DNA of 64,000 nt, taken from contig NZ_BMKQ01000001.1 in assembly GCF_014644415.1 (NCBI RefSeq), positions 2,989,217-3,053,216 on the forward strand. Reading direction: 5' to 3'. A program made the position numbers and the translations under genes. Under the pieces are notes generated by a model. That model did not search any database and was not told where the DNA came from. It saw only the letters and a list, made by a program, of their open reading frames with translations. Positions 40,313 to 55,566 of this stretch are shown piece after piece (the stretch's first letter is position 1; each line of letters begins with the position of its first letter). The DNA is from Marmoricola endophyticus (GTDB lineage Bacteria > Actinomycetota > Actinomycetes > Propionibacteriales > Nocardioidaceae).

Positions 40313-40900
40313 TCAGCGCAGCCGGTCGAGCTCGCGCCGCAGGTTCGCGCGAGCGGCTCGCTCCCACCTCGCTCGGCCGTCCTCGGTCTCGAACAGGTGC
40401 TCCTTGGCGAGCAGGCCGTCGAGCACCGCCCGACGCCCGGCGCGGAAGTCGGCGTCGGGAACATGGGCGTACTCCGTGCGGACGCCGGCGGTGTACGTCG
40501 CGTACCGCTCCGGCCCGGCTGCCAGGATCGCCAGGTCCGCGTCGCACAGCGCGGCACCCGCGACGTCACCGGGCTCGGGGCGGTGGGTCGCGGTCAGTCG
40601 GACCAGGCGGCCCACCTCCGCGGCCAGGTCCGGCTCGTCGGAGAGCGCACTCTCCGCCCACGCCGCCGAGCGCTCCTCGTCGTCGCCGGCACCGTCGTAC
40701 ACCGCATCGTGGAACCACGCCGCGAGCACGACCGCGCCGTCGTCGACGCCCAGCTCGGCGAGCCGGGCGAGGACCTCGCACAGGTGCGTCCGGTCGTGGT
40801 AGCCGCGCCCCGGCTCGTCGTACGCCCGGAGCAGCGCGTCGCGCAGCGCCTCGTCGTACCCCGGGGGCCAGGGCAACCCGGCGATCGCTCCCCGGTCCAT
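40313..40900 (-). CDS. HD-domain metal-dependent phosphohydrolase-like protein
   Basis: 195 residues. Metal-binding His in YHDRTHL and the HD pair in WFHDAVYDG, with a later Asp in DADLAIL, match the COG4339 group of predicted phosphohydrolases. It is divergent from the thiopeptide precursor and probably outside that cluster. Confidence 0.82.
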   Translation of the reverse strand: MDRGAIAGLPWPPGYDEALRDALLRAYDEPGRGYHDRTHLCEVLARLAELGVDDGAVVLAAWFHDAVYDGAGDDEERSAAWAESALSDEPDLAAEVGRLVRLTATHRPEPGDVAGAALCDADLAILAAGPERYATYTAGVRTEYAHVPDADFRAGRRAVLDGLLAKEHLFETEDGRARWERAARANLRRELDRLR

Positions 40901-41060: not shown

Positions 41061-41207
41061 ATGGACAAGATCGACCTGAACGCGCTGGAGATCTCGGACC
41101 TGATGGCCGAGACCGACGGGGGCAACGACTCCCTCTCGCAGGTGATGGCCGCCTCGTGCACCACGAGCGGCTGCGCGTGCAGCTCCTCGTCCTCGTCGTC
41201 TTCCTGA
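41061..41207 (+). CDS. Thiopeptide precursor peptide
   Basis: 48 residues. GGAGAGG at 41046-41052 is eight bases from this ATG and too close to the in-frame ATG at 41055. The acidic leader (about residues 1-31, with LNALEISDLMAE) ends in VMAA, and the core is SCTTSGCACSSSSSSSS. Its first ten residues follow the thiostrepton/micrococcin pattern S-C-T-T-x-x-C-x-C-S. Ser1 and Ser10 are correctly placed to form a 26-membered macrocycle through the pyridine. The eight terminal Ser residues are unusual and could become dehydroalanines. All biosynthetic genes follow downstream. Confidence 0.93.
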   Translation: MDKIDLNALEISDLMAETDGGNDSLSQVMAASCTTSGCACSSSSSSSS

Positions 41208-41222
41208 CTCGACGTCGACTGG

Positions 41223-41260
41223 CATCTGCCGGGGACGACTACGGTCGTCCCCGGCAGATG
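41223..41260 (+). terminator. 17-bp perfect hairpin with UACG tetraloop after the precursor gene
   Basis: CATCTGCCGGGGACGAC (41223-41239) and GTCGTCCCCGGCAGATG (41244-41260) pair perfectly around TACG. In RNA this is a C(UACG)G loop, a UNCG-type tetraloop of high stability. It starts 16 bases after the precursor stop and has no T-tract. It may attenuate transcription or protect the precursor mRNA so that substrate is made in excess over enzymes. Confidence 0.8.
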
Positions 41261-41300
41261 TGCGTGTGGGGACCGATCCGAGACGAGCCGAGGAGCAGTC

Positions 41301-42338
41301 GTGTGGACGTCGTACGTCGTGCCGCTGGCCGACCTGCCCGACCGAGGCGTCGGGCCGGCCCGCCGGCTGGTCGCTGACGCGGAGCGCGTGCTCGGATCGC
41401 GCACGCGTCGTCTCGTCGTGCGCACGGTGGGCAGCCCCGGCGCCGGTGACGACATCCTGCTTGCGGTCGCCGACCGGGTCTCGCCCCAGGAGCAGGACGT
41501 CGCCCGCTCGGTGATCGAGCGGCACGGACTGCGCGCTCCGGTGCCGCGCGAGTCCGAGCAGCCACCGCTGGACGACTCGGGGCTCGGCTTCGACGGCCCG
41601 GCCCTCGCCGAGACCTGGACCGACCTGCTGGTCGCCGCCGCTCCCGTCGCCAGCGCCCTCACGGCCGCCCTGCGCGGCGACCCGGCGCGGGACTACCCGT
41701 TGGCGATCGGCCTCATGGCCGAGCACGCCCGAGCGGCGGTCGCCGTCTCGTCGCAGTCCGTGCTGACCGGGTTGTCCGCCGAGGAGCTGGTGCCCCTGCG
41801 GCTCCTCAGCTATCGCTCGCACGCCGAGGGGGCTCTCGCGCGGTTCCGCGATCGCGACGCGATGGCCGCGCTGTTCGCCGCGACCTACCGCGAGCACCGC
41901 CTGGCCGTCCTCGGTGCGCTCGACCCGGCCACGCCGGCGCCCGCTCAGCCCTGGCTGGGCCAGTGGCGCGGCCTCGTCACCGACGCCCTCCCACGGGTGC
42001 GTGAGCTGCTCGTCGAGGGGCGGCTCGCCGCGAGCGGCGAGCGTCTGGACCGCGTGGCCGAGGACCCGGAGCGCGCTGCGACGCTCTCGTCGTTCCACCG
42101 CCAGATCTCCCCGGCCATGGCGCACCTGCTCTACGACGATCCCGACTTCGGGGCCTACCGCCTGCTCACGACGCTGCTCTACACGGTGCTCTACACCGCG
42201 GGTCTCAGCCTCCCCGAGCGCTACCTGTTCTGCTCGATGGTCGCGGACGGCAACGAGGAGCGCTCGGGCCTGGCGCCGGCCGACCTGCAGCAACGGCTCG
42301 GCGAGGTCGCCCGGTCCGTCGCCGGCGCGGAGGTCTGA
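41301..42338 (+). CDS. Putative thiopeptide [4+2] pyridine synthase (TclM/TbtD-like)
   Basis: 345 residues from a GTG with GAGGAG upstream. Fold assignment is by weak similarity to the LanB small-domain family: mostly helical, with the C-terminal YRLLTTLLYTVLYTAGLSLPERYLFCSMVADGNEE that resembles pyridine synthases. This enzyme class joins two dehydroalanines of the modified core to form the central pyridine, closes the macrocycle and expels the leader. Every thiopeptide cluster needs one; no other gene here can supply it. The name rests mainly on that elimination. Confidence 0.68.
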   Translation: MWTSYVVPLADLPDRGVGPARRLVADAERVLGSRTRRLVVRTVGSPGAGDDILLAVADRVSPQEQDVARSVIERHGLRAPVPRESEQPPLDDSGLGFDGPALAETWTDLLVAAAPVASALTAALRGDPARDYPLAIGLMAEHARAAVAVSSQSVLTGLSAEELVPLRLLSYRSHAEGALARFRDRDAMAALFAATYREHRLAVLGALDPATPAPAQPWLGQWRGLVTDALPRVRELLVEGRLAASGERLDRVAEDPERAATLSSFHRQISPAMAHLLYDDPDFGAYRLLTTLLYTVLYTAGLSLPERYLFCSMVADGNEERSGLAPADLQQRLGEVARSVAGAEV

Positions 42339-42350
42339 GGCGTGGTCCGC

Positions 42351-43151
42351 CTAGGAGACGGTGCGCGAGTACCTCGCGTGCAGGACGATGCCCGCGGCGA
42401 CCGAGACGTTCAGCGAGTCCGCTGCCGGGTTGATCGGGATCCCGACCGTGCCCTCGCAGAGGTCGTGCAGCGACTCCCCGACGCCGGACTTCTCCGCGCC
42501 CAGCACCAGCCCCAGTCGGCGGGGCAGGCCTCGCAGGTCGTCGGTCCCGAGGGTGCCGCCCATGTCGACGTCGACCAGCGACCAGGCGTCGGACTCGACC
42601 TGTCGGCGGACCTCCTCGCGCGAGGCGAGGACCACCGGCAGCGAGAAGACGAACCCCCGGCTGGCCCGGACGAGCCGGCGGTCCACCACCGAGGTCAGGT
42701 CGCTGTCGACCAGCACCACGGCGCCCGCTCCGAGGGCGTACGCGGTCCGGATGATCGCGCCGATGTTCCCGACGATCTTCACGCCGTCGAGGATCACCAG
42801 GTCGCCGGTCACGCCGCCCACCTCGGCGAGACCGACGGCGCGGGGGGCCCGGATCAGACCGAACTGCCGCGGACGCTTCTCCGACTTGAAGACCTTGTTC
42901 AGCACGCCCAGATCGACGCGGCGGACGGTCACCTCCCGCGTCGCGCAGGCCGCGGCGAGGTCGGCGGGGACCTCGCGGGAGGCGTCGGCGTACACCTCGA
43001 GGAACTCCACGCCCGCGGACAGCGCCTCGAGCAGCGGTTCGGGGTCCTCGACGATCGCCGTACGCACGTTGGCGCGGGACTTCTTGACGATGTCCGCGAT
43101 CCGTTGAACGGCCGGGTCGGAGAGGTCGGTCAGCACGTCGGCGTCGGACAC
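42351..43151 (-). CDS. tsr: Thiostrepton-resistance-type 23S rRNA (A1067-2'-O)-methyltransferase
   Basis: 266 residues from a GTG. The SpoU/TrmH knot is at the C-terminus. The sequence is very close to the Streptomyces Tsr/NshR enzymes from end to end as I recall them: SDPAVQRI, GVEFLEVYADAS, VILDGVKIVGNIGAI, LVDSDLTSVVDRRL and RASRGFVFSLPVVL. Those enzymes methylate A1067 in the L11-binding GTPase centre and protect producers of thiostrepton and nosiheptide. It is thus the self-resistance gene and a direct hint to the product's target. It is convergent with the pyridine synthase and divergent from the first YcaO gene. Confidence 0.92.
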   Translation of the reverse strand: MSDADVLTDLSDPAVQRIADIVKKSRANVRTAIVEDPEPLLEALSAGVEFLEVYADASREVPADLAAACATREVTVRRVDLGVLNKVFKSEKRPRQFGLIRAPRAVGLAEVGGVTGDLVILDGVKIVGNIGAIIRTAYALGAGAVVLVDSDLTSVVDRRLVRASRGFVFSLPVVLASREEVRRQVESDAWSLVDVDMGGTLGTDDLRGLPRRLGLVLGAEKSGVGESLHDLCEGTVGIPINPAADSLNVSVAAGIVLHARYSRTVS

Positions 43152-43219
43152 CGCGTGAAACTAGCACGGGGTGCGGGCCCGACCCCCGATCGTGCGCTGC
43201 GGGGCCGAGGGGCCGTGCG

Positions 43220-44557
43220 ATGACCGACACCGGGAGCAGCGTCCCGGCCTCCCTGCGTGCCGTCGAGCGGCTGGTCTCGCCGTACGGGCTGGTCAACGCC
43301 TCGGCCGTGGTTCCTCGCGCGCCCGGCGACCCTCGCTTCACCGTGCACGCCTCGTACGTCGGGAACCCCGGCGCGGTGCTGGGCGGGCTGTCGGGGTGGT
43401 CCCACGACGTCAACATGGGGAACATGAACGGGGTCGGGAGCGACCTCGACCCCGAGCGGGCGCGGCTGGTCTCGGTCGCGGAGGCCCTGGAGCGCTACTC
43501 CCTGTGCGCCTGGCGCGACGAGGACCTCGTCACCGCCCCGGAGACTGCGCTGGCCGCGGACGACGTGGTCTCACCGGCCCGCTGGCCGCGGCCCTCGGAC
43601 GCCGAGCTCGCAGCGCAGGCGTGCGGGCTGCGGCGCTACGACCCGTCGCTGCCGATCAGGTGGGTACGAGGCTGGTCGTTGACGCGCGGGCGAGAGGTGC
43701 TCGTCCCCGCCGTGACCGTCTACATGCACATGGTGCCGATCAGCGACTCCGAGCTGTTCACCCGCGGCGTCACGACCGGTGCCGCCGTCCACTCCGACCC
43801 TGAGGAGGCGGTGCTGTCGGGCGCGCTGGAGGTCGTCGAGCGGGACGCCCTGACCCTGGCGTGGCTGCTCAGGCGGCGCCTCCCCGCTCTGCGGGTCGCG
43901 GAGGCGGACCTGTCCGCCGCCGACGCGCAGGCGGTACGCACCGGCAGTGCGACGCACCTCGAGGTGCGACTCTTCGACGCCACCACCGACCTCGGGATCC
44001 CGGTCGTGTACGCCCTCCAGCTGTCCGAGCACGAGCCCCGGGTCGCCCAGATGGTGTGCGCGACCTGCGACCTGGAGCCCGGCCGCGCGGTGGGCAAGAT
44101 CCACCGCGAGCTCGCCGCACTCAGAGTCGCGCTGCGCGACTACGTCGCTCAGCACCCCTCCTCGCGCCCGGCCGACGACGCCGTCAGCGTGCTCGCCGGC
44201 GCGGCGTACCAGGGGCAGCGCGAGCGCCGTGGCTCCTTCTCCCACCTGCTGGACGGCGAGCGTGCCGTCCACGACCTCGGCGACCTCCCCCGCGTCCCCG
44301 CTAGCGCATCGCGGCTGGCGCACGTCGTCGACCGGGTCGGCTCCCGCGGGGGCGAGGTGATCGTCGTCGACGTCACCACCGACGAGGCCCGCAGCGTGGG
44401 GATGACCGGGGTGAAGGTGCTGGTCCCCGAGGCGGTCCCGCTGTCCTTCATCCATGCCGAGCGCTACCTCGCCACGCCTCGTCTCCGGGAGGCCGCCGCC
44501 CGCACCGACGACGCCGCCTCCTCCGACATCAACCCCGAGCCCCAGCCGTTCGCATGA
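43220..44557 (+). CDS. YcaO-domain azoline-forming cyclodehydratase, copy 1
   Basis: 445 residues. YcaO ATP-binding motifs: SVAEALERYSLCAW (about 88), SGALEVVERDALTLAW (about 195) and the later E-x-x-R-type region VGKIHREL. It ends in PEPQPFA, a proline-rich C-terminus typical of azoline-forming YcaO proteins. The enzyme uses ATP to cyclise Cys, Ser or Thr of the core to azolines. Its stop overlaps the next gene, an E1-like partner. Confidence 0.9.
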   Translation: MTDTGSSVPASLRAVERLVSPYGLVNASAVVPRAPGDPRFTVHASYVGNPGAVLGGLSGWSHDVNMGNMNGVGSDLDPERARLVSVAEALERYSLCAWRDEDLVTAPETALAADDVVSPARWPRPSDAELAAQACGLRRYDPSLPIRWVRGWSLTRGREVLVPAVTVYMHMVPISDSELFTRGVTTGAAVHSDPEEAVLSGALEVVERDALTLAWLLRRRLPALRVAEADLSAADAQAVRTGSATHLEVRLFDATTDLGIPVVYALQLSEHEPRVAQMVCATCDLEPGRAVGKIHRELAALRVALRDYVAQHPSSRPADDAVSVLAGAAYQGQRERRGSFSHLLDGERAVHDLGDLPRVPASASRLAHVVDRVGSRGGEVIVVDVTTDEARSVGMTGVKVLVPEAVPLSFIHAERYLATPRLREAAARTDDAASSDINPEPQPFA

Positions 44558-45231
44558 CCACGGACCACGACGAGAGGAGCACGGTGGACACTGCGCCGGT
44601 GTCGATCCGCGAGTCAGCCTCGCCCGCCGCGAGTGGGCCGGACCTCTACGCGCTGTCCGGCGAGCTGGCCGAGCGGGTCTTCGAGCGCTCGGGTCTGCCC
44701 GCCGAGCGCGCCCTGACCCCTGCCCGTCTCCGCGCGGTGCTGGAGGGCGACGAGGCGCCGGTCGGCGTGGCGCTGGTCGCGCTCGTCGGGACCGGGGAGG
44801 ACGAGGGGCTCCGCGACGCGCTGGACGCCTGGTCCGTCCGTCGCGGGATCGCCTCGACCGCCGTCGAGGTGCTGCCGACCCGGATCGTCGTCGGCCCGAC
44901 GGTGGTGCCCGGGCACGGCGCCTGTCACCGGTGCTACCGGCGGAGGCAGGCGCAGCACGCCGTCGACGGCGCCGGTCGCGACCTGGACAGCACCGGGCTG
45001 CCCGAGGGCTTCGGCAACCACCACGTCGCCGTCGTCACCTCCCTGCTCCGTCTGGCCGCCGAGGACCGGTACGCCGGCCGCGGCGGCACCGTGCGCAGCC
45101 TGGACCTCGTGCGCGGCACCGTGTCGACGGCGAGCGTCGTACCCGTGCACGGGTGCGACCGCTGCGGCACCGGCGAGCACGACGACCGTCCCGCGGCCTG
45201 GGTACGCCTCGACGACCGGGAGGGCCGATGA
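44554..45231 (+). CDS. Small E1-like/leader-binding partner with two CxxC pairs
   Basis: 225 residues from the ATG overlapping the YcaO stop. Cysteine pairs CHRC and CDRC could bind one zinc, as in E1-like cyclodehydratase partners; the ATP-binding E1 motifs are absent. It resembles the C-terminal part of such partners (TRIVVGPTVVPGHGACHRCYRRR). It probably supports the first YcaO protein together with the following fusion protein. The exact job is inferred. Confidence 0.6.
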   Translation: MTTDHDERSTVDTAPVSIRESASPAASGPDLYALSGELAERVFERSGLPAERALTPARLRAVLEGDEAPVGVALVALVGTGEDEGLRDALDAWSVRRGIASTAVEVLPTRIVVGPTVVPGHGACHRCYRRRQAQHAVDGAGRDLDSTGLPEGFGNHHVAVVTSLLRLAAEDRYAGRGGTVRSLDLVRGTVSTASVVPVHGCDRCGTGEHDDRPAAWVRLDDREGR

Positions 45232-46841
45232 GCACCGAGATGAGGGCCGCGACCCTGGGACGCGCGGTCAACCGCGACCTGCAGGTGTTCGTGCCCGCGC
45301 GGCCGGTGGTCCGGCGCGGGGTCCGGCTCCGCGAGGTCCCCGAGGGGATGCTCCTCGAGGGTGCCGACCGGTCCCAGCAGCTCTCCGGGGCCTTCGCCTC
45401 GACGCACCTGCCCGGCCTGGTCGCGCTGCTGGACGGGAGCAGGAACCACGCCGACCTGTCGCGGGAGACGGGCCTGGACCCCACCGCACTCGACTCCGCG
45501 CTGGCGGTCCTGTGGGCGATCGGCGCCGTGGAGGAGGCTCCTGAGCGCCCGGTCGAGCCCCGGCTGGACGAGCCGATGCGCACGATGCTGTCGCGGCTGG
45601 GGAACGCCACGGCCACCAACCACTCCTGGACCGAGGCGGCACAGCGGCTGGAGAGCACGACGGTCTGCGTCCTCGGTGACCCCGCGCTGACCTCGCTCGT
45701 GCGGCCCCTGGTCGACGACCTCTGCCCGACGAGCGATGACGTGGGCGGGGCGACGCTCGTGCTCTACGTCCGTACCGCGGCCTCCGAAGCGGCACTCGAC
45801 ACGGTCCAAGAGGCCTGCTGGCGCGACGGGCGTCCTCTGCTGGTCGTCACCCTGACTGGCGCGCGGGTGCTGGTCGGGCCGTACGTCGACCCGTCGTTCA
45901 CGCCGTGCTGGGAGTGCGCCACCCACACGGTCGACCCCGCACCCCTCGAGCCGGTCGCCGACGCGACGCCGGAGCTGGCGGCGGGGCTCGCCGTGCACCA
46001 CCTGTGTGCCCTGGTCTCGCGGGCGACCATCTCGCACCTGCCGCTCGACGTCGCGATCGTGGACGGTGAGCAGCTCACGACGACGTACCTCCCCCCGGTC
46101 ACGCGGCCCGGCTGCCCGCGCTGCTCCACGACGCCGCCCACCGCGGGGTCCGTGGGAGACGCCGGCCCGGGCGCGGTCTTCGAGGCCTCGGTCGCGATGC
46201 CGCCCCGGCGCTTCCTCGACGCCAAGGGCCACATGGCCCACTACTTCACCGCCAACATCGCGCTGCAGTCGTCCTTCCGGGCCTGGGCGTCCGCGCCGAC
46301 GACCGACCTCCCCGGCCCGGACCTCTCGCTGCTCTCCCACGAGGACGAGGAGTCCGACTGGTCCCTCGACGAGCTCGCGCTCGCCCTGCACGTCGGGCTG
46401 GGCATCAAGCAGACCCGACCGGACGGGAGCGTCAAGCGCTGGACGGCCGCCGCCGGCAACATCGGGACCGTCACGGCGTACGTCGTCTCCGACGGTTCCG
46501 CCGGCCTCCCAGTCGGGGTGCACGCCTTCCTGGAGTCCACCCACCAGCTGGCCGGGCTGCGCGACGACGTGCCCGACGGGCACCGGGGGACGCTCGTGGT
46601 CCTCACCGGGAACCTGCGCAAGGTCGTCGCGAAGTACGGCACCTTCGGGCTGAAGCTCTCGCTGCTCGACACCGGGTGCACGATCAGCGCCCTGCGCAGG
46701 CACGCCGACCACCGTGGGCTGCGGTGCGAGGTGCTCACGTCGTGGGACGACGACGCGCTGAGCGAGTACCTCGGCACCGATCCGATGGAGGAGCCCGTCG
46801 AGGGCGTGCTCAGGCTGGAGGCACCGTGCGCAACGACCTGA
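45228..46841 (+). CDS. E1-like partner fused to a nitroreductase-type azoline dehydrogenase
   Basis: 537 residues from the ATG overlapping the upstream stop. Residues 1-310 look like an E1-like ocin-ThiF partner, with a PqqD-like start (VFVPARPVVRRGVRLREVPEGMLLEGAD) and CWEC plus CPRC zinc pairs. Residues 315-537 resemble a SagB-type FMN nitroreductase (SVKRWTAAAGNIGTVTAYVV; KYGTFGLKLSLLDTGCTISALRRHA). The fusion would couple substrate docking to oxidation of azolines to thiazoles or oxazoles. The domain order is unusual. Confidence 0.72.
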   Translation: MSTEMRAATLGRAVNRDLQVFVPARPVVRRGVRLREVPEGMLLEGADRSQQLSGAFASTHLPGLVALLDGSRNHADLSRETGLDPTALDSALAVLWAIGAVEEAPERPVEPRLDEPMRTMLSRLGNATATNHSWTEAAQRLESTTVCVLGDPALTSLVRPLVDDLCPTSDDVGGATLVLYVRTAASEAALDTVQEACWRDGRPLLVVTLTGARVLVGPYVDPSFTPCWECATHTVDPAPLEPVADATPELAAGLAVHHLCALVSRATISHLPLDVAIVDGEQLTTTYLPPVTRPGCPRCSTTPPTAGSVGDAGPGAVFEASVAMPPRRFLDAKGHMAHYFTANIALQSSFRAWASAPTTDLPGPDLSLLSHEDEESDWSLDELALALHVGLGIKQTRPDGSVKRWTAAAGNIGTVTAYVVSDGSAGLPVGVHAFLESTHQLAGLRDDVPDGHRGTLVVLTGNLRKVVAKYGTFGLKLSLLDTGCTISALRRHADHRGLRCEVLTSWDDDALSEYLGTDPMEEPVEGVLRLEAPCATT

Positions 46842-47533
46842 CCACCATGCGGCGGCTGCTGGCCGCCTGGGACGGCACCGTGGACGTCGCGGTCACCGGC
46901 GCCGGCGCGGCCGTCGAGCTCCCGGGAGCGGTGCCGGTGCCGGTCGAGGCCGCGACGGACGACGTCGACTACGCCGCCACGCTGGGGTCGCGCCACTCCA
47001 CGCTGCAGTACGCACCCCGGCCGGTCGCCACCGGCACGGTCCTCGCGCTGGGCCGTGCGGCGCTGCAGCGGGACTCCGCGGCCTGGCAGCAGGACGAGCG
47101 GACCGGCCCGCTGGAGCTGATGGTCTTCGCCCAGCGCTCCAGCGACCTGCCGAGAGGCGTCTACCGCGTGCACCGCGACGGTTGCGAGCGGATCGCCGAC
47201 GACCGGCGGTTCACGGACCTCGAGGAGCTGGGTGGCCAGCGGGAGTTCGCGACCGCCGCCGGGATCGCCACCGTCTACGCCCCCCTCGCTCGAGGCGACG
47301 TGTCGGCCGGTGCGCACGGCTACCGCCTCCTCACGACCCGCGGTGCAGCCCTGCTCTACGACCTCAACTTCACGATGCAGGCCGGCGGGCTCGTCGGCAC
47401 CATCTTCGGCGGGTTCATCCCCGCGGCGGCACGGCACCTGACCCGCGCGGACGGCGTGACCAGGCACCCCGTCCTGTCGACGACCTACGCGCTCCCCGCG
47501 GAGGCGGCGCAGGACGCGCAGAGCGCGCAGTGA
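46826..47533 (+). CDS. SagB-like nitroreductase (azoline dehydrogenase), second copy
   Basis: 235 residues from a GTG preceded by GGAGG; the start overlaps the previous gene by 16 bp. An ATG at 46847 is the alternative. SRHSTLQYAPRPVATGTVLALGRAAL is the usual nitroreductase N-terminal motif, and GYRLLTTRGAALLYDLNFTMQAGGLVG the FMN-side helix. With the fused domain just upstream it may form a heterodimer, each contributing to the FMN site. Confidence 0.75.
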   Translation: MRNDLTTMRRLLAAWDGTVDVAVTGAGAAVELPGAVPVPVEAATDDVDYAATLGSRHSTLQYAPRPVATGTVLALGRAALQRDSAAWQQDERTGPLELMVFAQRSSDLPRGVYRVHRDGCERIADDRRFTDLEELGGQREFATAAGIATVYAPLARGDVSAGAHGYRLLTTRGAALLYDLNFTMQAGGLVGTIFGGFIPAAARHLTRADGVTRHPVLSTTYALPAEAAQDAQSAQ

Positions 47534-49248
47534 CGACCGCCCCCTCCGATGCCGGCCTCTCCTGGCCCCTGCTGCGCTCCGACGTCACGCTCGTGCCGAC
47601 CGCGTCGGGGGCGTGGCTCGGCACGGCGGACAGCTCGTTCACCGTCGGCGGGGCCGGGGTCCACCGCGTGCTGGCCGATCTGATGACGGGTCTGGACGGG
47701 TCGCGCTCGGCGGAGGACCTGCTCGACGCCGCAGGAGCCGGGCGCGAGGTGCGCGCGCGGCTGCTCGACGTCCTCGCCGAGCGCGGGTACGTCGTCGACC
47801 TCGCACTCCCGGTCGGTGAGCTCGTGGAGCGGTACGGACCCGGCGCCGGCCGCCTCGTCGCGGACCTGGCGCAGCGGCACCGTGACCCCGCAGCCGCACT
47901 GGGCCGGATCGTGACGGGAGCGGTCCTGCTCGTCGGCCCGGCGTCCGCCCGCGCCGCACTGCGCCGGGCGCTGGGGTCGTACGCGCTGCAGGGGCCGACC
48001 GTCCAGGAGCTCGCGGACCGTGGCGCGCTCCACGAGGCGCTCTCGCACACCGACCCGAGCACCGCGGTGGTCGTGGATCTCGACCCTGAGGTGGAACCCG
48101 GCGCGACGCCCCCGCCACTCCTCGGCCCGCCCGCGTGGCGGCAGGTCGTCGCGGGCACCCTGGGCGACGCGGTCTGGGTCGCGCCGAGCACCGGCGCGAG
48201 CCCCGCGTGCTGGCCCTGCCTGGCGCGGGCCGCACCGGACGACGGGACGACGGCGCCGCCGGTGGACGGACCTCTGGTCGCGGCCGTGATCGCCGACGCG
48301 GTGCACGCCCTGCTCGCCGCGCCGGGCGACGCGTCGGTGCTCGCGGACCCCGTCGCGTCCGTGCACGCCGACGTCCGTGTCGATCGCCACCGGGCGTGGT
48401 CGGGCCAGGGGTGCAGGTGCGGGCGCGTGCCTAGGACGACGACGGGCTCGCCGCCGGTGCTGCCGCCGCGCCCGCTCGCTGTCGCGCCCGGTGAGGTCCG
48501 CGACGACCTCGGCTTCGACCGGCTCGCCGACCGGACGGCGAGCTGGGTGGACCCGCAGCTGGGCCCGCTGCTGCGCCTGGACGAGGCGGACCTCGCCCAG
48601 GTGCCCCTCGGTCGGGTCGTGGGGGAGGTGCTGCGTGAGACGGGGGAGCAGGAGCGCCGACACTGGACGCGGGGCCGGGTCACCTCCGTGGCCGTCACCT
48701 CTCGCGAGGCCCGCCACGAGGCGGCACTCGCCGCTGTCGAGCTGGTCGCCGCGTCCGCCCGAGGCCAGGACGGCACCACCGCGGCGGGGTGGAGTCTCGA
48801 CGAGGCGGTCTACCGTGCGCTCGTACGACAGGTCCGCGACCTGCCGGCCGACGGCACGGACCCTGCCGGGCCGGAGCGCTCCGCAGGTCCGGACCACGCC
48901 GGTGGTGACTGCGGCCGCTACTGCTCGTTCGTCGAGCGGGCCGCCGAGCACCTGACCGGGCACGCGCCGCGCTGGGGGGTGGCCGTACGCCGTCGCGGCC
49001 TCGCCGTCGTGCACGGACACCTGGGAGGCCAGGAGGTGCGCGGGGTCGGGCTGTGCCCCGACGAGGCCCGGATCTCCGCCCTGCTCACCCTTCTCGCCGA
49101 TCGCTCGTCGCCGGTCGTGGTGCCTCCGCAGGCGGCGTCGTGGGACGACGTGTGGTCCACGGTCCTGCGACCGGCCCACCGCCCGGTGGCCGCGCGCGAC
49201 CGGCTGCCGTTCCCGACGGACCAGGTGGTGCTGGTGTGCCTGAGCTGA
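47530..49248 (+). CDS. Ocin-ThiF-like cyclodehydratase partner (F protein)
   Basis: 572 residues from a GTG overlapping the upstream stop. N-terminal PqqD-like leader-binding region (about 1-90), then an E1-like domain with cysteine pairs CWPC and CRC. The C-terminal half resembles the TOMM scaffold found next to YcaO proteins. It would bind the precursor leader and activate the second YcaO protein directly downstream, with which it overlaps by 13 bp. Confidence 0.75.
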   Translation: MTTAPSDAGLSWPLLRSDVTLVPTASGAWLGTADSSFTVGGAGVHRVLADLMTGLDGSRSAEDLLDAAGAGREVRARLLDVLAERGYVVDLALPVGELVERYGPGAGRLVADLAQRHRDPAAALGRIVTGAVLLVGPASARAALRRALGSYALQGPTVQELADRGALHEALSHTDPSTAVVVDLDPEVEPGATPPPLLGPPAWRQVVAGTLGDAVWVAPSTGASPACWPCLARAAPDDGTTAPPVDGPLVAAVIADAVHALLAAPGDASVLADPVASVHADVRVDRHRAWSGQGCRCGRVPRTTTGSPPVLPPRPLAVAPGEVRDDLGFDRLADRTASWVDPQLGPLLRLDEADLAQVPLGRVVGEVLRETGEQERRHWTRGRVTSVAVTSREARHEAALAAVELVAASARGQDGTTAAGWSLDEAVYRALVRQVRDLPADGTDPAGPERSAGPDHAGGDCGRYCSFVERAAEHLTGHAPRWGVAVRRRGLAVVHGHLGGQEVRGVGLCPDEARISALLTLLADRSSPVVVPPQAASWDDVWSTVLRPAHRPVAARDRLPFPTDQVVLVCLS

Positions 49249-50939
49249 CCACTGCCGTCGTCGCGTGGCGATCGGACCTCCTGGTGATGCGCGCCGCCCC
49301 GTCGGTCGGGGCCGGGTGCCCCGACTGCCTGCGCTGGTTCCTCCACCGCCAGCAGGTGCCGGGCAGCCGAGCGTCGGACACCCGAGACCTGGACGGGACG
49401 GTCGGCGGTCCCGAGGCGCCCGAGACCGATGACCCGGCGCTCGCTGCGCTGCTCGACGCCGTCACCGACGAGCTGGAGACCCGGCCCGAGGGATCGGTGG
49501 CGGTCGTGCGTCGTCGGCCGCTCGGCGTCCGGTGGGCCCTGGTGCCGCCGGCCACGGCGTGCGGGCACACCGGGCAGGCCTCGTCGGGGCGACTGTCTGC
49601 GACGGTGGACGAGGCCCGCCTGGCGATCGCCGGCGACGGTCTGCGCGGGGGCGCCGGCCCGGCACCGGACCTGGAGAGCGCCTACGTCGGCGCCACCACG
49701 ATGTTCACCCCGGCACGGCTCGACATCGACGGACCCGTCCCGGCGGTGCAGGTCGGTGTACCCCTGCCCGACGGCGGCGAGGAGCCCGGGATCGGACGAA
49801 CCGAGGACTTCGCCTCGAGCCGGCGTGTCGCTGTGCTCGAGGGGCTCGAGCGCTTCGCGGCCCTGCAGGGCGCTGCGGGGACTGCGGCGACCGTGGCCAG
49901 CCTGTCGGAGCTGGGCGAGGCGGCGCTGGACCCGGCCCTGCTCGGAGCGCCCGCGCCGGAGCAGTACGCCGCCGGTGCGTACGCCCCCCTCGCGCCCGAC
50001 GAGCAGGTGCGCTGGCTGCCACTGACCCCGCTCGGCCGCGGCTCACGGCGGTGGGTGCCCGAGATGGCGGTGGCCTGGAACGCCGTCCCCGCCGGACGGA
50101 AGCCGCTCTTCTACGACACCTCCAACGGGTTCGCCCTCGGCTCGACACCCGAGGAGGCCGCGCTGCACGGCGTGCTGGAGGTCGTCGAGCGTGACGCCTT
50201 CCTGCGCACCTGGCACCAACGCCTGGCGCTGCCCGAGCTCGAGATCGAGACCGGCGAGGACGACCTCGCCGTGCTCGTCGACCGGTACGAGGTGGTCACC
50301 GGTTTCCGGGTCCGCCTGCTGTGGGCGGCGATGGAGGAGGGCGTGCCCGTCGTGGTCGCCCTGGCCGGTCGCGATGCCGAGACCGGACCGGCGACCTTCG
50401 TCTCCGCGGGCGCGAGCCTGTCGCCGCGCGCGGCGGCACGCTCCGCCGTCCTCGAGGTGGCCGCGATCTCCATGGCGGTCACCCACGGCTTCGCCGACGA
50501 CCTGCCGCACGCGGCGAGCCTCGCCGAGGACCACAACCGGGTCCGCACGATGCACGACCACAGCCTGCTGGGGGCGCTGGCCTCCTCGCGCCCCTGGTAC
50601 GACTTCCTCACCGGCGAGGACCGCGAGCGCGTCGACCTGGCCGCGCTCGAGGCGCGACGGCCCCGGCACCCCACCGTCACCGCCGCGCTCGAGGACCTCG
50701 TCGGACGCCTCGAGGACCACGGCAGCGAGGTGTACGCGACGGAGGTGACGACCGCCGAGCTGGAGTGGCGAGGACTCAGCTGTGTCCGGTCGTTCGTGCC
50801 GGGCTTCCTGCCGATGACCTTCGGCCACGACCAGCGGCGCCTGCACGGGCTGCCCCGGCTGCACGAGCCCGTCCCCGGCCTGCGGTCCCGGCTCAGCGGC
50901 AGGACGCCGGAGGACCAGCCGCCGCACCCCTTCCCCTGA
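49236..50939 (+). CDS. YcaO-domain azoline-forming cyclodehydratase, copy 2
   Basis: 567 residues from a GTG inside the upstream gene. An N-terminal 150-residue region with CPDC (about residue 27) precedes the YcaO core: RRVAVLEGLERFAALQG, LHGVLEVVERDAFLRTW, ARSAVLEVAAISMAV. It ends in PEDQPPHPFP, the proline-rich end of azoline-forming YcaO proteins. Together with its F partner it is a second cyclodehydratase. One set may form thiazolines from Cys and the other oxazolines from Ser. Confidence 0.9.
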   Translation: MPELTTAVVAWRSDLLVMRAAPSVGAGCPDCLRWFLHRQQVPGSRASDTRDLDGTVGGPEAPETDDPALAALLDAVTDELETRPEGSVAVVRRRPLGVRWALVPPATACGHTGQASSGRLSATVDEARLAIAGDGLRGGAGPAPDLESAYVGATTMFTPARLDIDGPVPAVQVGVPLPDGGEEPGIGRTEDFASSRRVAVLEGLERFAALQGAAGTAATVASLSELGEAALDPALLGAPAPEQYAAGAYAPLAPDEQVRWLPLTPLGRGSRRWVPEMAVAWNAVPAGRKPLFYDTSNGFALGSTPEEAALHGVLEVVERDAFLRTWHQRLALPELEIETGEDDLAVLVDRYEVVTGFRVRLLWAAMEEGVPVVVALAGRDAETGPATFVSAGASLSPRAAARSAVLEVAAISMAVTHGFADDLPHAASLAEDHNRVRTMHDHSLLGALASSRPWYDFLTGEDRERVDLAALEARRPRHPTVTAALEDLVGRLEDHGSEVYATEVTTAELEWRGLSCVRSFVPGFLPMTFGHDQRRLHGLPRLHEPVPGLRSRLSGRTPEDQPPHPFP

Positions 50940-50984
50940 CGTACGTCCCCGTCCCCGTCCCCGACCGACCAGCCTGGAGTGTGC

Positions 50985-53624
50985 ATGACCGACGTGATCC
51001 CCGGCCGCGACCGCGACGAGCTCAGCCCGTACGCGGTCTTCCGCCGCGCCCGGCTGCCGCTCTCGACCCTCGCCGCGATGGACTGCCCGTCGACCTGGCG
51101 GGCTCACGACGAGTGGGAGCGGCGGGACCGGCGTGCGCGCGAGCTCCGCGAGGAGCTCGCCGACCGGGTCGGCGAGCTCGTGGAGGACGCGCGCGACGAT
51201 CGCCGCGCGGACCTGGTGTCCCTGCGCCGCGACCTCTTCAACGGTCGGGTCGACCGCGTCGTCCGGCGCACGGAGGACGCGGGCGACCTGCTCGGGCCGG
51301 ACCTGTCCGCGCGGGTCGGCCGGTGGCTGGAGGAGCAGCGCGCCGCCTCGCAGGACCGGGAGGAGGTGGTCCGGCTCCTCGGCGCCGAGCAGGACGCCGC
51401 CCGTGGCGACTTCGCCGCCATCTTCGAGCACGACTCGATGGCCATGAGCATCCAGCTCTCGGGCGACCAGCTCTACCGCAGCCTGCAGCGGTTCGTCCGG
51501 GCGCCGCGGGACGGGAAGCCGAGCAAGCTGCGCATCCACGAGTCGTCGTTCGTGAACTTCGCGTACCGCGCAGCGATGAAGCCCTCGCCCTTCGGGCGGT
51601 TCACCGAGACCGGGGCCTTCGACCCCGACTCCCCGACGACGGCCACGGACCGGACCGAGTCGACGGTGACTCTCAACAGGCTGCTGCTGAACTGGATGGT
51701 CGGTGTCGCGCAGCGGACCCCCGACGGGATGCGGCAGGGCTACCTGCTGCTCAACTCCAGCCTGCGGGTCGAGGAGGACGCGGTCCGCTTCGTCGGCGTC
51801 GACCCGAAGGGCAGCGACTCCGGGTTCGGTGGCTCCGAGGGTGTCGTACGCCTCAAGCTGGACCCGGCGACCCGCCTGGTCCTCGCCACGCTCGACGGTG
51901 GCAGCTGCCCGACGGCCACGCTGCGCGACGCGCTGGTCGAGGCCACGGGGCAGCCCGAGGCCAGCGAGAGGATGATCCGCGTCCTCATCAACATCGGCCT
52001 GCTCTTCTACCGGCCGGGGTTCGACGAGCTGGACCCCGGGTACGACGAGCGGCTCGGCCGCTTCCTGGCCGCGGCCGGCACCCCGGAGACGACGGCCATC
52101 GCCGAGTCCTTCCAGCGCCTGCGGCACGCCCAGGACTCGTTCGGGCAGGCGGACGCGCAGTCGCGCGGCGAGCTGATCGCGGACTCGCTGAGCGCGATCC
52201 GCGACATCGCTGCGGTGAGCCAGGTGGACGTACCCCCGGAGTCGACGATGCGCTCGCCGCTCTTCGAGGACACCTGGACGGCCGGCGGGCCCCGGGGGTG
52301 GGACGGGGACGCGGTGTCCGGGTCGCTGCCCGCCCTGGGCGCGCTGAGCCGGCTGGCGGGGATCGCGGACCAGGGGCAGGTGCGGCGGCTGGGGCTCTAC
52401 GACTTCGCACGGTCGTGCTTCCCGGACGCCACCACCGTGCCGTTCCTCGACCTGTTCGCACGCTTCACCGAGCTCGACCCCGACGAGCAGCGCGCCGTCC
52501 TCGACGGTGTCCGGTCGAGCTCGGCGCAGCGCTTCGCGGCCGACCGTACGGCCGCGTTCGCGCAGCTGCGCTCCAGCCTCCACGTCGAGGACGGCACGGC
52601 GCGTCTCGGGTCCGATCGTCTCCGAGAGATCTGCGACCGCGTGCCGCGGGCGGTGCAGCCGGGGTCGGTGACCTTCCGCGTCCAGCTCACGAACGACGAA
52701 CCGCGCCCGCAGGTCGTCGTCAACGGGGTGCTCTCGGGCCACGGTGTGTACTTCTCGCGGTTCGCCTCGTTCGTGGAGCGCAGCACCGACCCGGCCTGGA
52801 CGCTGCGCGAGCGGATCAGGGCCCACCTGAGGAGGACGGCGCCCGGCCAGGCGGACCTCAACGCGGTGCTCGGGTTCAACTTCAACCTCCACCCGTTCCT
52901 GACCGACGCGATGGTCGACTACCCCGGGGCGTGGGGAGGGCCCGAACCCGACCGGCGCCACGCCCTGAGCGACCTCGACGTCGAGCTCGACGACGAGTCC
53001 GGGAGCCTGCACCTGCGCGAGGCGGGGTCCGGCGACCCGGTCGACCTGGTGCCGATGAACTTCCTCATCCCGGTCGGCGTACCCGCCCTCTACCAGGTCC
53101 TCGAGGCACTGAGCCCGACCACGCGGTACCCGTGGAACCCCCTCGACGACCTCCTCGCGTGCGGCCCGGAGGAGCCCTCCCCGCGGCTCGTCGTCGACGA
53201 CGTGGTCGCGGACCGCAGGGCCTGGCGCTTCCCCGCGACGGCCGTGCCGAGCCTGGAGACGCTCAGCCGCGGCGAGCCGGAGGACCTGCTCGGTTTCGAC
53301 GTCTGGCGCCGCGAGCTCGGGCTCCCGCAGCAGTGCTTCGTGACCTGCCAGACTCCCCAGGAGTACGCCGCCCTCACCGGCCGGCGCGTGCCCGGCGCCG
53401 ACGCCACGACGGACTCCGCCCACCTGCACCGCGCCAGCGTCCACAAGCCGATGTACGTCGACTTCCGGAACCCGTTCCTGGTGCGGAGCTTCGCCCGGAC
53501 CGCCGCCTCGCGCGAGGGCGTGCTGGTCGTGGTCCGCGAGTGCCTTCCCGCCGTCGCCGACTACCGGTCGCCGCACGGCCCCGCCGCCGCAGAGGAGTAC
53601 TTCGTTGAGCTCAACCAGTCCTGA
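50985..53624 (+). CDS. LanB-like dehydratase, glutamylation subunit (TbtB-like)
   Basis: 879 residues from the ATG with GGAG upstream. The Lant_dehydr_N signature is seen in SPYAVFRRARLPL and the MKPSPFGRFT stretch near residue 204; FNFNLHPFL and the C-terminal RNPFLVRSFA also match. This subunit transfers glutamate from Glu-tRNA to Ser side chains of the core, the first step of dehydroalanine formation. The elimination half is encoded separately by the next gene, as in thiopeptide clusters. Confidence 0.9.
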   Translation: MTDVIPGRDRDELSPYAVFRRARLPLSTLAAMDCPSTWRAHDEWERRDRRARELREELADRVGELVEDARDDRRADLVSLRRDLFNGRVDRVVRRTEDAGDLLGPDLSARVGRWLEEQRAASQDREEVVRLLGAEQDAARGDFAAIFEHDSMAMSIQLSGDQLYRSLQRFVRAPRDGKPSKLRIHESSFVNFAYRAAMKPSPFGRFTETGAFDPDSPTTATDRTESTVTLNRLLLNWMVGVAQRTPDGMRQGYLLLNSSLRVEEDAVRFVGVDPKGSDSGFGGSEGVVRLKLDPATRLVLATLDGGSCPTATLRDALVEATGQPEASERMIRVLINIGLLFYRPGFDELDPGYDERLGRFLAAAGTPETTAIAESFQRLRHAQDSFGQADAQSRGELIADSLSAIRDIAAVSQVDVPPESTMRSPLFEDTWTAGGPRGWDGDAVSGSLPALGALSRLAGIADQGQVRRLGLYDFARSCFPDATTVPFLDLFARFTELDPDEQRAVLDGVRSSSAQRFAADRTAAFAQLRSSLHVEDGTARLGSDRLREICDRVPRAVQPGSVTFRVQLTNDEPRPQVVVNGVLSGHGVYFSRFASFVERSTDPAWTLRERIRAHLRRTAPGQADLNAVLGFNFNLHPFLTDAMVDYPGAWGGPEPDRRHALSDLDVELDDESGSLHLREAGSGDPVDLVPMNFLIPVGVPALYQVLEALSPTTRYPWNPLDDLLACGPEEPSPRLVVDDVVADRRAWRFPATAVPSLETLSRGEPEDLLGFDVWRRELGLPQQCFVTCQTPQEYAALTGRRVPGADATTDSAHLHRASVHKPMYVDFRNPFLVRSFARTAASREGVLVVVRECLPAVADYRSPHGPAAAEEYFVELNQS

Positions 53625-54513
53625 GCAGGCCGAGCGCTGGCACGCGTTCCACGTCTACCTCCCGCACACGGTGCAGTCCGCGTTCCTGCGCGAGCAGGTG
53701 ACGGAGCTGGTGGACACCGCCGAGTCGGCGCGGTTCTTCTTCCTGCGGTACTGGCAGGGGGGACCGCACCTGCGGCTGCGCCTGCACACCGACGAGGCGA
53801 CGGCCGACGTCTTCGCCCGCGCCCTGGGCGACCGGATCCCCGAGCTGACCGAGGAGCAGCGCGTGGAGTACGGCTACGAGCTGGACATGCAGAAGCAGTT
53901 GGCATCGGCCGAGGGCGAGTCGCCGGGCGCCGGGCGCAGCCCGGGGGACGTGGTGCGCGAGTCGTACGCCCCCGAGTACGCCAAGTACGGCGGGCCGGAG
54001 GGGATCGACCTGGCCGAGCAGGTCTTCTGTGCCACCTCGCGCGTGGTCCTGGACGTGCTGGCCTCGCGCGAGACGTACGCGCGGACACCGCCGCTCGGGG
54101 AGGCCATGCGCTGCACGCTGGTGGGCCTGTCGGCGTCGGGCCTCGGCCAGGCCGAGGCCGGCCGGTTCCTCGAGTGGTACGAGTCGTGGTGGAGCGGCTA
54201 CGTCCCCGACGGGCAGGCCGAGTCGTGGCAGCGGCTGAGCGCGCAGATGCGCGGGCAGGTCGACGAGCTGGTCGACGAGGCCTGGGACGGCACCAGGGAC
54301 GACGTGGTCCGCGACCTCTACCGTGCGGCGCGGGCTCGAGCCGACGAGCTGGACACCGGCGACGGGGACGTCCCGGTCGTCGGCGGGGTGGACTACTCGC
54401 GGATCCTGGCCAACTACGTCCACACGACCAACAACCGGTTCGGGATCATCCCCGCCGGTGAGGCCTTCCTGGCCCGGGTGCTCTCCGAGGCGCTGCACGC
54501 GAGAGTCGGCTGA
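53605..54513 (+). CDS. LanB-like dehydratase, elimination subunit (TbtC-like)
   Basis: 302 residues from a TTG; AGAGGAG at 53591-53597 is seven bases upstream, and no ATG or GTG fits. WHAFHVYLPHTVQSAFLREQV, FFLRYWQGGPHLRLRLH and the C-terminal YVHTTNNRFGI match the SpaB_C/thiopeptide-type domain. It eliminates glutamate from glutamylated Ser/Thr to give Dha or Dhb. It overlaps the glutamylation subunit by 20 bp. Last gene of the cluster. Confidence 0.9.
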   Translation: MSSTSPEQAERWHAFHVYLPHTVQSAFLREQVTELVDTAESARFFFLRYWQGGPHLRLRLHTDEATADVFARALGDRIPELTEEQRVEYGYELDMQKQLASAEGESPGAGRSPGDVVRESYAPEYAKYGGPEGIDLAEQVFCATSRVVLDVLASRETYARTPPLGEAMRCTLVGLSASGLGQAEAGRFLEWYESWWSGYVPDGQAESWQRLSAQMRGQVDELVDEAWDGTRDDVVRDLYRAARARADELDTGDGDVPVVGGVDYSRILANYVHTTNNRFGIIPAGEAFLARVLSEALHARVG

Positions 54514-54540: not shown

Positions 54541-55302
54541 TCAGCCCCTCCGCGGGGGCATCGGGAAGAACAGGTTCGTGCGCCGCGCGTAGTCGTCCCA
54601 GCCCTCGCGCCTGCTCATCGTCTGCTCCAGCAGCTTGGCGCCGGTGACGTTGCGGATGAAGTACGTCATCGCCAGCGGCCCGACGATCGTGGCGACGCCG
54701 GCCCAGCCGGAGTCGGCGGCGACGATCCACACGCCCCACCACATGGTGGCGTCGCCGAAGTAGTTCGGGTGCCGGGTCCAGCCCCACAGACCCTTGTCCA
54801 TGACCTTGCCCTTGTTGTCCGGGTCGGCCTTGAAGGCGGCGAGCTGGCGGTCGCCGACGGTCTCGAAGGCCAGCCCGACGGCCCAGACGACGACCCCGGC
54901 CCAAGCCAGCCAGGTGACGTCGCGGTCGGAGCCCACACCGATCTGGATCGGCAGCGAGACCACGAACATCGCGACACCCTGGGGGAGCAGCACCCGGCGT
55001 ACCAGGCCGTTGCCCTCGTCGCGCAGCTTCTGGTAGCGCGGGTCCTCACCCTGGCCCTTCGCCCGGCCGATGATGTGCGAGGCAAGGCGCCCCGCCCAGA
55101 TCGCGGGGAGCGCCAGCAGCAGGACCCGCCGCAGGACGTCGCCGTCGCCGACGAGCGCAGCCAGCACCGCGATCACGCCGAACCCGAGACCCCAGGTCGT
55201 GTCGACCACGGCCCACCGGTCGCTGCTCCGCGCCCACGCCGCTGTCGCCGCCATCATCACCACGACGGCCAGCGCACTGACCAGCACCACGACCCACGTC
55301 AT
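54541..55302 (-). CDS. DUF1295 membrane protein
   Basis: 253 residues from the ATG giving MTWVVVLVSALAVVVMM. Seven hydrophobic segments and GWTRHPNYFGDATMWWG, the steroid-5-alpha-reductase-like signature that binds NADPH. It is the last gene of the lipid operon. A DUF1295 gene is also part of the mycobacterial sigK locus. Probably reduces a double bond or methylene in a fatty acyl chain. Confidence 0.85.
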   Translation of the reverse strand: MTWVVVLVSALAVVVMMAATAAWARSSDRWAVVDTTWGLGFGVIAVLAALVGDGDVLRRVLLLALPAIWAGRLASHIIGRAKGQGEDPRYQKLRDEGNGLVRRVLLPQGVAMFVVSLPIQIGVGSDRDVTWLAWAGVVVWAVGLAFETVGDRQLAAFKADPDNKGKVMDKGLWGWTRHPNYFGDATMWWGVWIVAADSGWAGVATIVGPLAMTYFIRNVTGAKLLEQTMSRREGWDDYARRTNLFFPMPPRRG

Positions 55303-55566
55303 GGCGTCAGCCTGCCAAAGTCCTCCACGCGCCACATCGGTCGAGGGCATGCCTCTCCGTTCGTGGCCTGCTGCCCGTCGCCCCTCACGCACGCTGGCTG
55401 CGTTGCGAGAGCTCGCCGGGCCCCGGCCCGCCATCGCTCCCGCGCCAAGCCACCACCCACGAGAGCGCTCGCTGCGCTCGCGCTCCTGCGGGGACCCCGG
55501 AGGTGCCATCGCCTGCGCTGGACGACGTTCAGCGGACGGCCAGAATCGAGAGACACGCCCTAGGCG
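55303..55566. other. 264-bp gap inside the lipid operon, no gene seen
   Basis: No convincing coding frame on either strand. It contains short GC-rich inverted segments (CCGGGCCCCGG at about 55418, and GAGCGCTCGCTGCGCTCGCG around 55460) reminiscent of the dispersed repeat elsewhere in the window. Confidence 0.5.

Follow-up and report, generated by a model that had tools for sequence, protein, structure and literature searches.

A compact two-YcaO gene cluster in Marmoricola endophyticus, predicted to encode a thiopeptide of the sulfomycin/TP-1161 subtype

Gene content and layout of the cluster

The DNA analyzed here, 64,000 nucleotides of Marmoricola endophyticus contig NZ_BMKQ01000001.1 (hereafter the window, meaning this whole stretch), carries a thiopeptide gene set at positions 41061-54513, consisting of a 48-residue precursor and ten further genes. 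We consider it very probable that this set is complete and directs the synthesis of a series-d, 35-membered thiopeptide belonging to the sulfomycin/TP-1161 subtype. The gene order is A, D and the convergent R, followed by the run G1, sE1, E2, E1, F, G2, B and C (43220-54513):

41061..41207, plus strand: precursor peptide A, 48 residues, NF033401 match; leader 1-31, core 32-48 = SCTTSGCACSSSSSSSS (border set by analogy)
41223..41260, plus strand: perfect 17-nt stem-loop with a 4-nt loop, between A and D, found by inverted-repeat search
41301..42338, plus strand: D, putative pyridine synthase ([4+2] macrocyclisation, leader removal), profile matches, GTG start
42351..43151, minus strand: R, TsnR/NshR-type 23S rRNA 2'-O-methyltransferase, putative target; TSNR_N 112 bits, over the cut-off; SpoU fold
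43220..44557, plus strand: G1, first YcaO (discrete D protein), PF02624 209 bits
44554..45231, plus strand: sE1, short E1-like protein, candidate thiazole/oxazole-modified microcin (TOMM) leader-binding partner of G1, TIGR03882 42.4 bits, cut-off 36.9
45228..46841, plus strand: E2, E1-like domain fused to a SagB/McbC-type azoline dehydrogenase, TIGR03882 above and TIGR03605 under the cut-off
46826..47533, plus strand: E1, nitroreductase-fold partner without the Lys-Tyr pair, start at GTG 46826 or ATG 46847
47530..49248, plus strand: F, ocin-ThiF-like candidate leader-binding partner of G2, TIGR03693 5.7e-5, far under the cut-off
49236..50939, plus strand: G2, second YcaO with a truncated N-terminal E1-like part, PF02624 226 bits, GTG start at 49236
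50979..53624, plus strand: B, LanB glutamylation subunit (tRNA-dependent dehydratase), PF04738 80.5 bits
53605..54513, plus strand: C, LanB elimination subunit, PF14028 154 bits, TTG start

The precursor (MDKIDLNALEISDLMAETDGGNDSLSQVMAASCTTSGCACSSSSSSSS), upstream of whose gene stands GAGAGGAA, matches the berninamycin precursor family NF033401 (thiazolyl_BerA) of NCBIfam with an E value of 5.6e-18 and 65 bits against a cut-off of 37.5, which bears out the 48-residue precursor with a Ser/Cys/Thr core proposed in the initial annotation. It also scores 42.5 bits against the general thiopeptide precursor family TIGR03892 (cut-off 25), while the BerA family was found in 0 of 14 well-known control genomes. 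The idea of a chance Ser-rich open reading frame was rejected on these scores over the cut-offs. Across six aligned precursors, the motifs EISDL and QVMAASCTT are invariant; the latter was itself the search pattern used to find relatives, and the former was not.

The full thiopeptide enzyme set that had been proposed held up, with family or Protein Data Bank profile matches for the pyridine synthase, the methyltransferase, both YcaO proteins, the E1-like proteins and the split LanB. Together with the BerA-type leader and a core that starts with SCTT, the discrete YcaO, its E1-like partner, the E1-dehydrogenase fusion and the second dehydrogenase are the features of the berninamycin/sulfomycin/TP-1161 group. 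The F protein and an extra YcaO, whose dependence on F we infer from its truncated N-terminal part, are those of the two-YcaO subtype. Specifically, D is 28-35% identical to six homologues beside BerA-type precursors, and a seven-sequence profile matches TbtD (4.4e-14), TsrE and PbtD; as a single sequence, it reaches 87 bits against NF045556, under the cut-off of 325. The D alignment comprised six relatives and left out that of Nocardiopsis suaedae, whose frame continues into G1. There (L015:11495-13837), D and G1 form one uninterrupted frame of 780 codons, which is an apparent fusion or a sequencing feature. A separate pattern scan for loci related to D gave 36 pattern matches and no relatives. 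A linear azole peptide such as goadsporin had also been considered as the product, and was ruled out by the TbtD/TsrE-type D protein and the BerA precursor.

B and C were each aligned with the seven relatives whose loci held both genes. B is 44-47% identical to these homologues and its profile matches the goadsporin protein 9jhq and 6ec7; C is 37-40% identical, with profile matches to TsrE and NisB. R matches the structure of the nosiheptide-resistance methyltransferase (3nk6) over its full length with 259 bits, and is likely, judging from this relationship, a self-resistance enzyme. Its score of 344.6 bits against the NshR/TsnR equivalog NF000477 is under the cut-off of 425, and R is therefore called only TsnR-like, with a putative 23S rRNA target. 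One correction to the initial annotation concerns this methyltransferase gene, which is encoded on the minus strand and sits between D and G1. The possibility that it is unrelated to the cluster was rejected: R lies inside the cluster, and homologues adjoin G2 in N. suaedae and the cluster of Streptomyces sp. Je 1-79.

The azole module is made up of G1, sE1, E2 and E1. G1 is 55% identical to its homologue in Je 1-79 and 56% to that in N. suaedae, and G1 and G2 are the sole YcaO matches of the whole genome at E 0.001; sE1 is 40-41% identical to the same two homologues. For E1, E2 and sE1, five relatives each were aligned. A six-protein E2 profile matches MusD, TruD and LynD in its front part and SagB-type, CyaGox and nitroreductase proteins in its rear part, with a Lys-Tyr pair invariant in 6/6 sequences. 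As for close plasmid relatives of E2, eight records were considered and dismissed, with identities of at most 32%. Searched as a single sequence, E1 matched neither Pfam nor NCBIfam at E 0.1, and a six-sequence profile finds the nitroreductase 3eo7 (1.2e-5) and BmdC. No Lys-Tyr pair was seen in the six aligned E1 sequences, and E1 is for this reason likely a non-catalytic or regulatory partner, given the role that we take this pair to have in the SagB/McbC-type dehydrogenase family. Hence, two nitroreductase folds are present, as had been noted, one of them as the C-terminal half of the E1-like fusion at 45228-46841 and the other as a separate protein (about 46826-47533) without the pair. For the searches, E1 (P0004) was read from CTG at 46838 and G2 (P0006) from CTG at 49245.

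The genes are less tightly packed than "nearly all overlapping," as first described. With the starts E1 GTG 46826 and G2 GTG 49236, 6/10 junctions overlap (5/10 if E1 starts at ATG 46847), all of them downstream of G1, and a 93-bp gap with the stem-loop separates A from D. The 96-nt stretch at 41205-41300 folds with a z score of -4.9, and 0/200 shuffles folded as well; no T-run was found at the stem-loop. Of the relatives, N. alba and S. africanus alone were examined for this feature, and both have a stem-loop separating A from D (15 nt, 93%, L035:1868-1908, and 18 nt, 89%, L024:4764-4813, respectively), such that all three clusters examined have one. The structure may form the 3' end, a stabiliser or an attenuator of a short precursor message and, in that role, would set the levels of precursor versus enzymes. 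No tRNA or Rfam element was matched in the window.

A silent or decaying cluster without a product would fit its occurrence in 1/391 sampled genomes of the order and the GTG or TTG start codons of most of its genes. However, none of the eleven reading frames is interrupted, each covers most of the length of its homologues, the overlapping junctions are in place and the invariant family residues are kept, which makes silence or decay highly improbable. The cluster is real and intact, and probably functional.

The second YcaO pair and cores with Cys7

Relatives were gathered by two routes. First, an E2-like gene search at E 1e-25 returned 10 genomes in a class sample of 394, and the nine other than the window's own were fetched. 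A BerA-type precursor was present in 2/9 of these loci, those of Streptomyces sp. Je 1-79 (L014) and N. suaedae (L015), while 7/9 had the G1-sE1-E2-E1 module without such a precursor; the module alone thus does not define the group. Four of the loci (L017, L018, L020 and L021) carry the module with other candidate precursors, which are Ser/Ala-rich and end in SSFG. D has no tblastn match in these four at E 0.001, and they apparently belong to another type of ribosomally synthesized and post-translationally modified peptide. Second, a pattern scan over 84,980 species, with one genome per species, reached only precursors containing [E/Q]VMAASCTT and possibly left out the window's own record. It gave 21 loci, of which nine have a BerA-type precursor (two of them the Je 1-79 and N. 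suaedae strains). In the other 12, the frame at the pattern lacked such a leader and the locus yielded none of the set's enzymes; these were set aside for that reason.

The nine relative cores comprise three SCTTTSVSTSSSSSSS, three SCTTSSVSTSSSSSSS, one SCTTTGCTTSSSSSSSS and two SCTTTGCACSSSSSST. SCTTTSVSTSSSSSSS occurs in the strain of locus L026, whose core is called identical to that of berninamycin in PMC10495126, and SCTTTGCTTSSSSSSSS is given as the core of sulfomycin (SulA/Lit11) in PMC8448680. TP-1161 is described with three thiazoles and an aminoacetone end (PMC7345825). With its three cysteines and terminal threonine, SCTTTGCACSSSSSST fits TP-1161, and it may by analogy be identical to TP-1161's own core. 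The core in the window is none of these four and is a new mix of their features: it shares Ser5 with geninthiocin-type cores, GCAC with the two Nocardiopsis cores and the eight-serine tail with sulfomycin. The string SCTTSGCAC was also not found in a literature search that covered text and not figures. The impression that this core is unfamiliar among characterized thiopeptides stood up on both counts.

One pattern among these genomes concerns F and G2. When the window's genome and the nine precursor relatives were searched, F was found in 4/10 at E 0.001. These four, namely the window's genome, S. africanus, N. suaedae and N. alba, are also the ones in which a close G2 of nearly full length was found (E below 1e-120). 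In the latter three, the F orthologues (33-34% identical) lie on the same contigs as the G2 orthologues (45-49%). These four genomes are exactly those whose core has Cys7; F and a close G2 were found in 0/6 of the genomes with one-Cys cores. All six of the latter have the first YcaO, and 5/6 also encode, on other contigs, YcaO proteins that are more distant (best 1.6e-57). This exact co-occurrence suggests that the F/G2 pair makes extra thiazoles of the Cys7 type. By its title, a 2020 study by Du et al. reportedly dealt with the five azoles of sulfomycins and a pair of YcaO proteins. The co-occurrence agrees with that title. It also agrees with a survey (PMC4603692) that reports an F protein in only 25% of the thiopeptide clusters with a discrete YcaO and, in occasional ones, a further cyclodehydratase of the fused kind.

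The predicted product

Based on these genes, the following biosynthesis can be proposed. The E1-like proteins would bind the leader. G1 with sE1 would form those azolines that the whole family shares (at Cys2, residue 5, residue 9 and Ser11), and G2 with F would add further Cys-derived azolines at Cys7 and perhaps Cys9. The flavoenzyme E2, with sE1 and the E1 that lacks the Lys-Tyr pair as partners, would oxidize azolines to azoles. B and C would dehydrate the remaining Ser and Thr, Thr3 excepted, and D would join dehydroalanine 1 and dehydroalanine 13 into the pyridine and drop the leader. R would methylate 23S rRNA, with A1067 (E. coli numbering) as the expected site, and protect the producer, and the tail, with no C-terminal trimming gene in the cluster, would probably keep its free carboxylate.

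For ring closure, the window core contains Ser10, which is consistent with the same enzymes closing a 26-membered ring there, as in thiocillin-type compounds; the heterocycles in the macrocycle region of berninamycin are reported to be spaced almost exactly as in thiocillin-like compounds (PMC6306032). However, Ser10 is invariant in the precursor relatives as well, and its presence is thus uninformative on ring size. Further, the published descriptions consulted give a 35-membered ring for each of berninamycin, geninthiocin, sulfomycin and TP-1161. Closure at Ser10 is, on this balance, very unlikely, and the 35-membered ring closed at Ser13, which the window core also contains, is preferred.

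The C-terminus is predicted from two tailoring genes of relatives, one for a BerI-like protein and one for an iron-containing alcohol dehydrogenase (Fe-ADH), neither of which was found in the window's cluster. Because both are lacking there, a free carboxylate at the end of the product is the simplest prediction. In Je 1-79, R and the P450 gene flank a gene of 129 aa. Its own Pfam match is weak (ydhR, 0.017, under the cut-off), and the berninamycin gene table shows berI, a NocA homologue, at the same place (PMC9290621), such that the Je 1-79 gene is called BerI-like by analogy of gene place. Homologues of this protein were found in 7/7 Streptomyces relatives and, more weakly, on another contig in N. 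suaedae; with the Je 1-79 query at E 0.01, none was found in N. alba or the window's genome. The Fe-ADH gene next to the N. suaedae cluster has a homologue, 55% identical, near G2 of N. alba (six of the 10 genomes were searched), and the window's genome has only distant matches (E 6.5e-10 and 3.3e-6). One distant match (25% identity), at window positions 13997-14470 and 27 kb upstream of the cluster, is probably an unrelated alcohol dehydrogenase.

Trimming to a C-terminal amide by an enzyme encoded elsewhere, as BerI does in berninamycin, would be consistent with the BerI-like gene of all seven Streptomyces relatives, with the amide ends reported for berninamycin and geninthiocin B and with the all-serine tail of the window core. 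Against it stands the lack of any match in the window's genome to the Je 1-79 protein at that threshold, in a search that did not extend to unrelated trimming enzymes. We regard the amide as unlikely, and the free acid remains the prediction.

A mass rule was applied, with azoles at 2, 5, 9, 11 and Cys7, Thr3 intact, all other Ser and Thr dehydrated and the pyridine formed from 1 and 13. For the window core, it predicts [M+H]+ of 1231.256 for the fully dehydrated acid, 1249.267 for the acid with Ser17 left intact and 1161.251 for the amide, each with three sulfur atoms. With one reported hydroxyl added, the rule gives C47H46N14O14S for geninthiocin B and [M+H]+ 1146.35 for berninamycin A, as published. 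For the Nocardiopsis core with an aminoacetone end, M is 1161.26, matching the name TP-1161 (the name, not a published mass). The two thiazoles and three oxazoles that it gives for sulfomycin agree with a review (PMC7231064).

Several points weigh against the assignment and its forecast. D and R score under the NCBIfam equivalog cut-offs, and the thiopeptide product is a prediction from genes. Within the eight-serine run, sequence alone does not distinguish Ser13 from the other serines, and closure at Ser10 would give the 26-membered ring. Since the ten genomes are related to one another, a small number of evolutionary events may underlie the link between F/G2 and Cys7. As for the masses, the geninthiocin B core letters were taken from genome relatives and trimmed to the published 15 residues and ten serines. 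The rule applied to sulfomycin I and III needs two added O plus two or one added CH2, additions that were fitted to the published formulas (PMC8448680). The review cited above (PMC7231064) gives sulfomycin four dehydroalanines, and the rule leaves five outside the pyridine. One 2,4-disubstituted oxazole is named in the TP-1161 description (PMC7345825), and the rule adds a methylated one from Thr5.

Tentatively, we propose that the cluster is a minimal natural 35-membered system, which holds the framework enzymes and a single resistance gene and lacks tailoring genes. It may yield a five-azole product (three thiazoles and two oxazoles, the core holding residues for all five) with an untrimmed serine-derived tail and a free acid, in an order without another such precursor in 391 sampled genomes; the possible general rule is that F/G2 adds Cys7-type thiazoles to a berninamycin-type scaffold. 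If expressed, the cluster would yield a candidate antibiotic of a ribosome-directed class that is rich in sulfur; at a compact 13.5 kb, it could be transferred to a laboratory host. Uncomplicated by tailoring genes, it would also suit the study of which ring each YcaO forms, and of how a partner without the Lys-Tyr pair and the leader-binding proteins share one substrate.

Distribution and comparison with known systems

G2 was found in 1/24 genomes of the genus (E 1e-60), E2 in 1/294 sampled genomes of the family (E 1e-25) and the precursor family in 1/391 sampled genomes of the order, in each case the window's alone. By comparison, the flanking genes are conserved, with DUF1295 in 24/24 genomes of the genus (E 1e-40) and a 195-aa protein in 10/24 (E 1e-25). 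In two sister genomes (L087 and L088), these two genes occur in the same order, 11.4 kb and 4.4 kb apart, and the window's frames have no tblastn match in those intervals at E 1e-8. The spot between the DUF1295 gene and the 195-aa gene, bounded by window positions 40313-40900 and 54541-55509, differs in content between the window and both sisters. The cluster was likely gained by transfer into a variable spot, the alternative being loss elsewhere. Beyond it, two neighboring cyclopropane synthase-like (CMAS) genes (55567-58220 and 58217-60970) lie beside an amine oxidase/DUF1365 frame and DUF1295; the CMAS-DUF1295 order is kept in two sister genomes, and the neighborhood looks like lipid metabolism.

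The host belongs to a family other than those of Streptomyces sp. Je 1-79 and N. suaedae, as the expectation of a host outside the usual Streptomyces implied. The novelty of this was overrated, as producers are reported from Nocardiopsis, Streptomonospora and Cutibacterium acnes. The Je 1-79 cluster (L014 and L044) lies between ribosomal protein genes (of the S10 operon type, by eye) and tuf/fusA/rpsG, and the window's does not; a ribosomal-protein/tuf setting is reported for geninthiocin and berninamycin producers.

Among known systems, the closest are the TP-1161-type clusters, a comparison that rests on N. suaedae and N. alba, the TP-1161 producer being another Nocardiopsis. Their precursors are 70-72% identical to the window's and share the GCAC core, both YcaO proteins and F; in N. 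suaedae, D, sE1, E2, E1 and R are shared as well, and D-G1-sE1-E2-E1-F-G2-R are consecutive. The window differs in having Ser5 for Thr5 and an SSSSSSSS tail instead of SSSSSST, in the lack of an Fe-ADH gene in the cluster, in the placing of A, B, C and R, and in its host. The aminoacetone end of TP-1161 would need a C-terminal Thr. The sulfomycin system of S. africanus shares the 17-residue core length, the eight-serine tail, Cys7, the second YcaO and F, whereas the window has Ser5, Ala8 and Cys9 instead of Thr5, Thr8 and Thr9, and no BerI-like gene was found in its genome. Further removed are the berninamycin and geninthiocin clusters (SCTTTSVSTSSSSSSS and SCTTSSVSTSSSSSSS), which share the leader motifs, B, C, D, G1, sE1, E2 and E1, with D-G1-sE1-E2-E1 in the same order in Je 1-79. 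Unlike the window, they have a one-Cys core, no close G2, no F, and P450 and BerI-like genes. Berninamycin also has a methyltransferase, berJ, in a gene table that likewise shows the make-up of its azole module (PMC9290621).

Thioxamycin and A10255 contain sulfur and are described as thiopeptides related to sulfomycin; thioxamycin is also described as acidic (PMC7231064), as predicted for the window's product. Overall, a cluster first annotated as apparently undescribed is so in part: its type, enzyme logic and subtype are already known from berninamycin, sulfomycin and TP-1161, while its core sequence, reduced gene set and host lineage are new on the searches made here.

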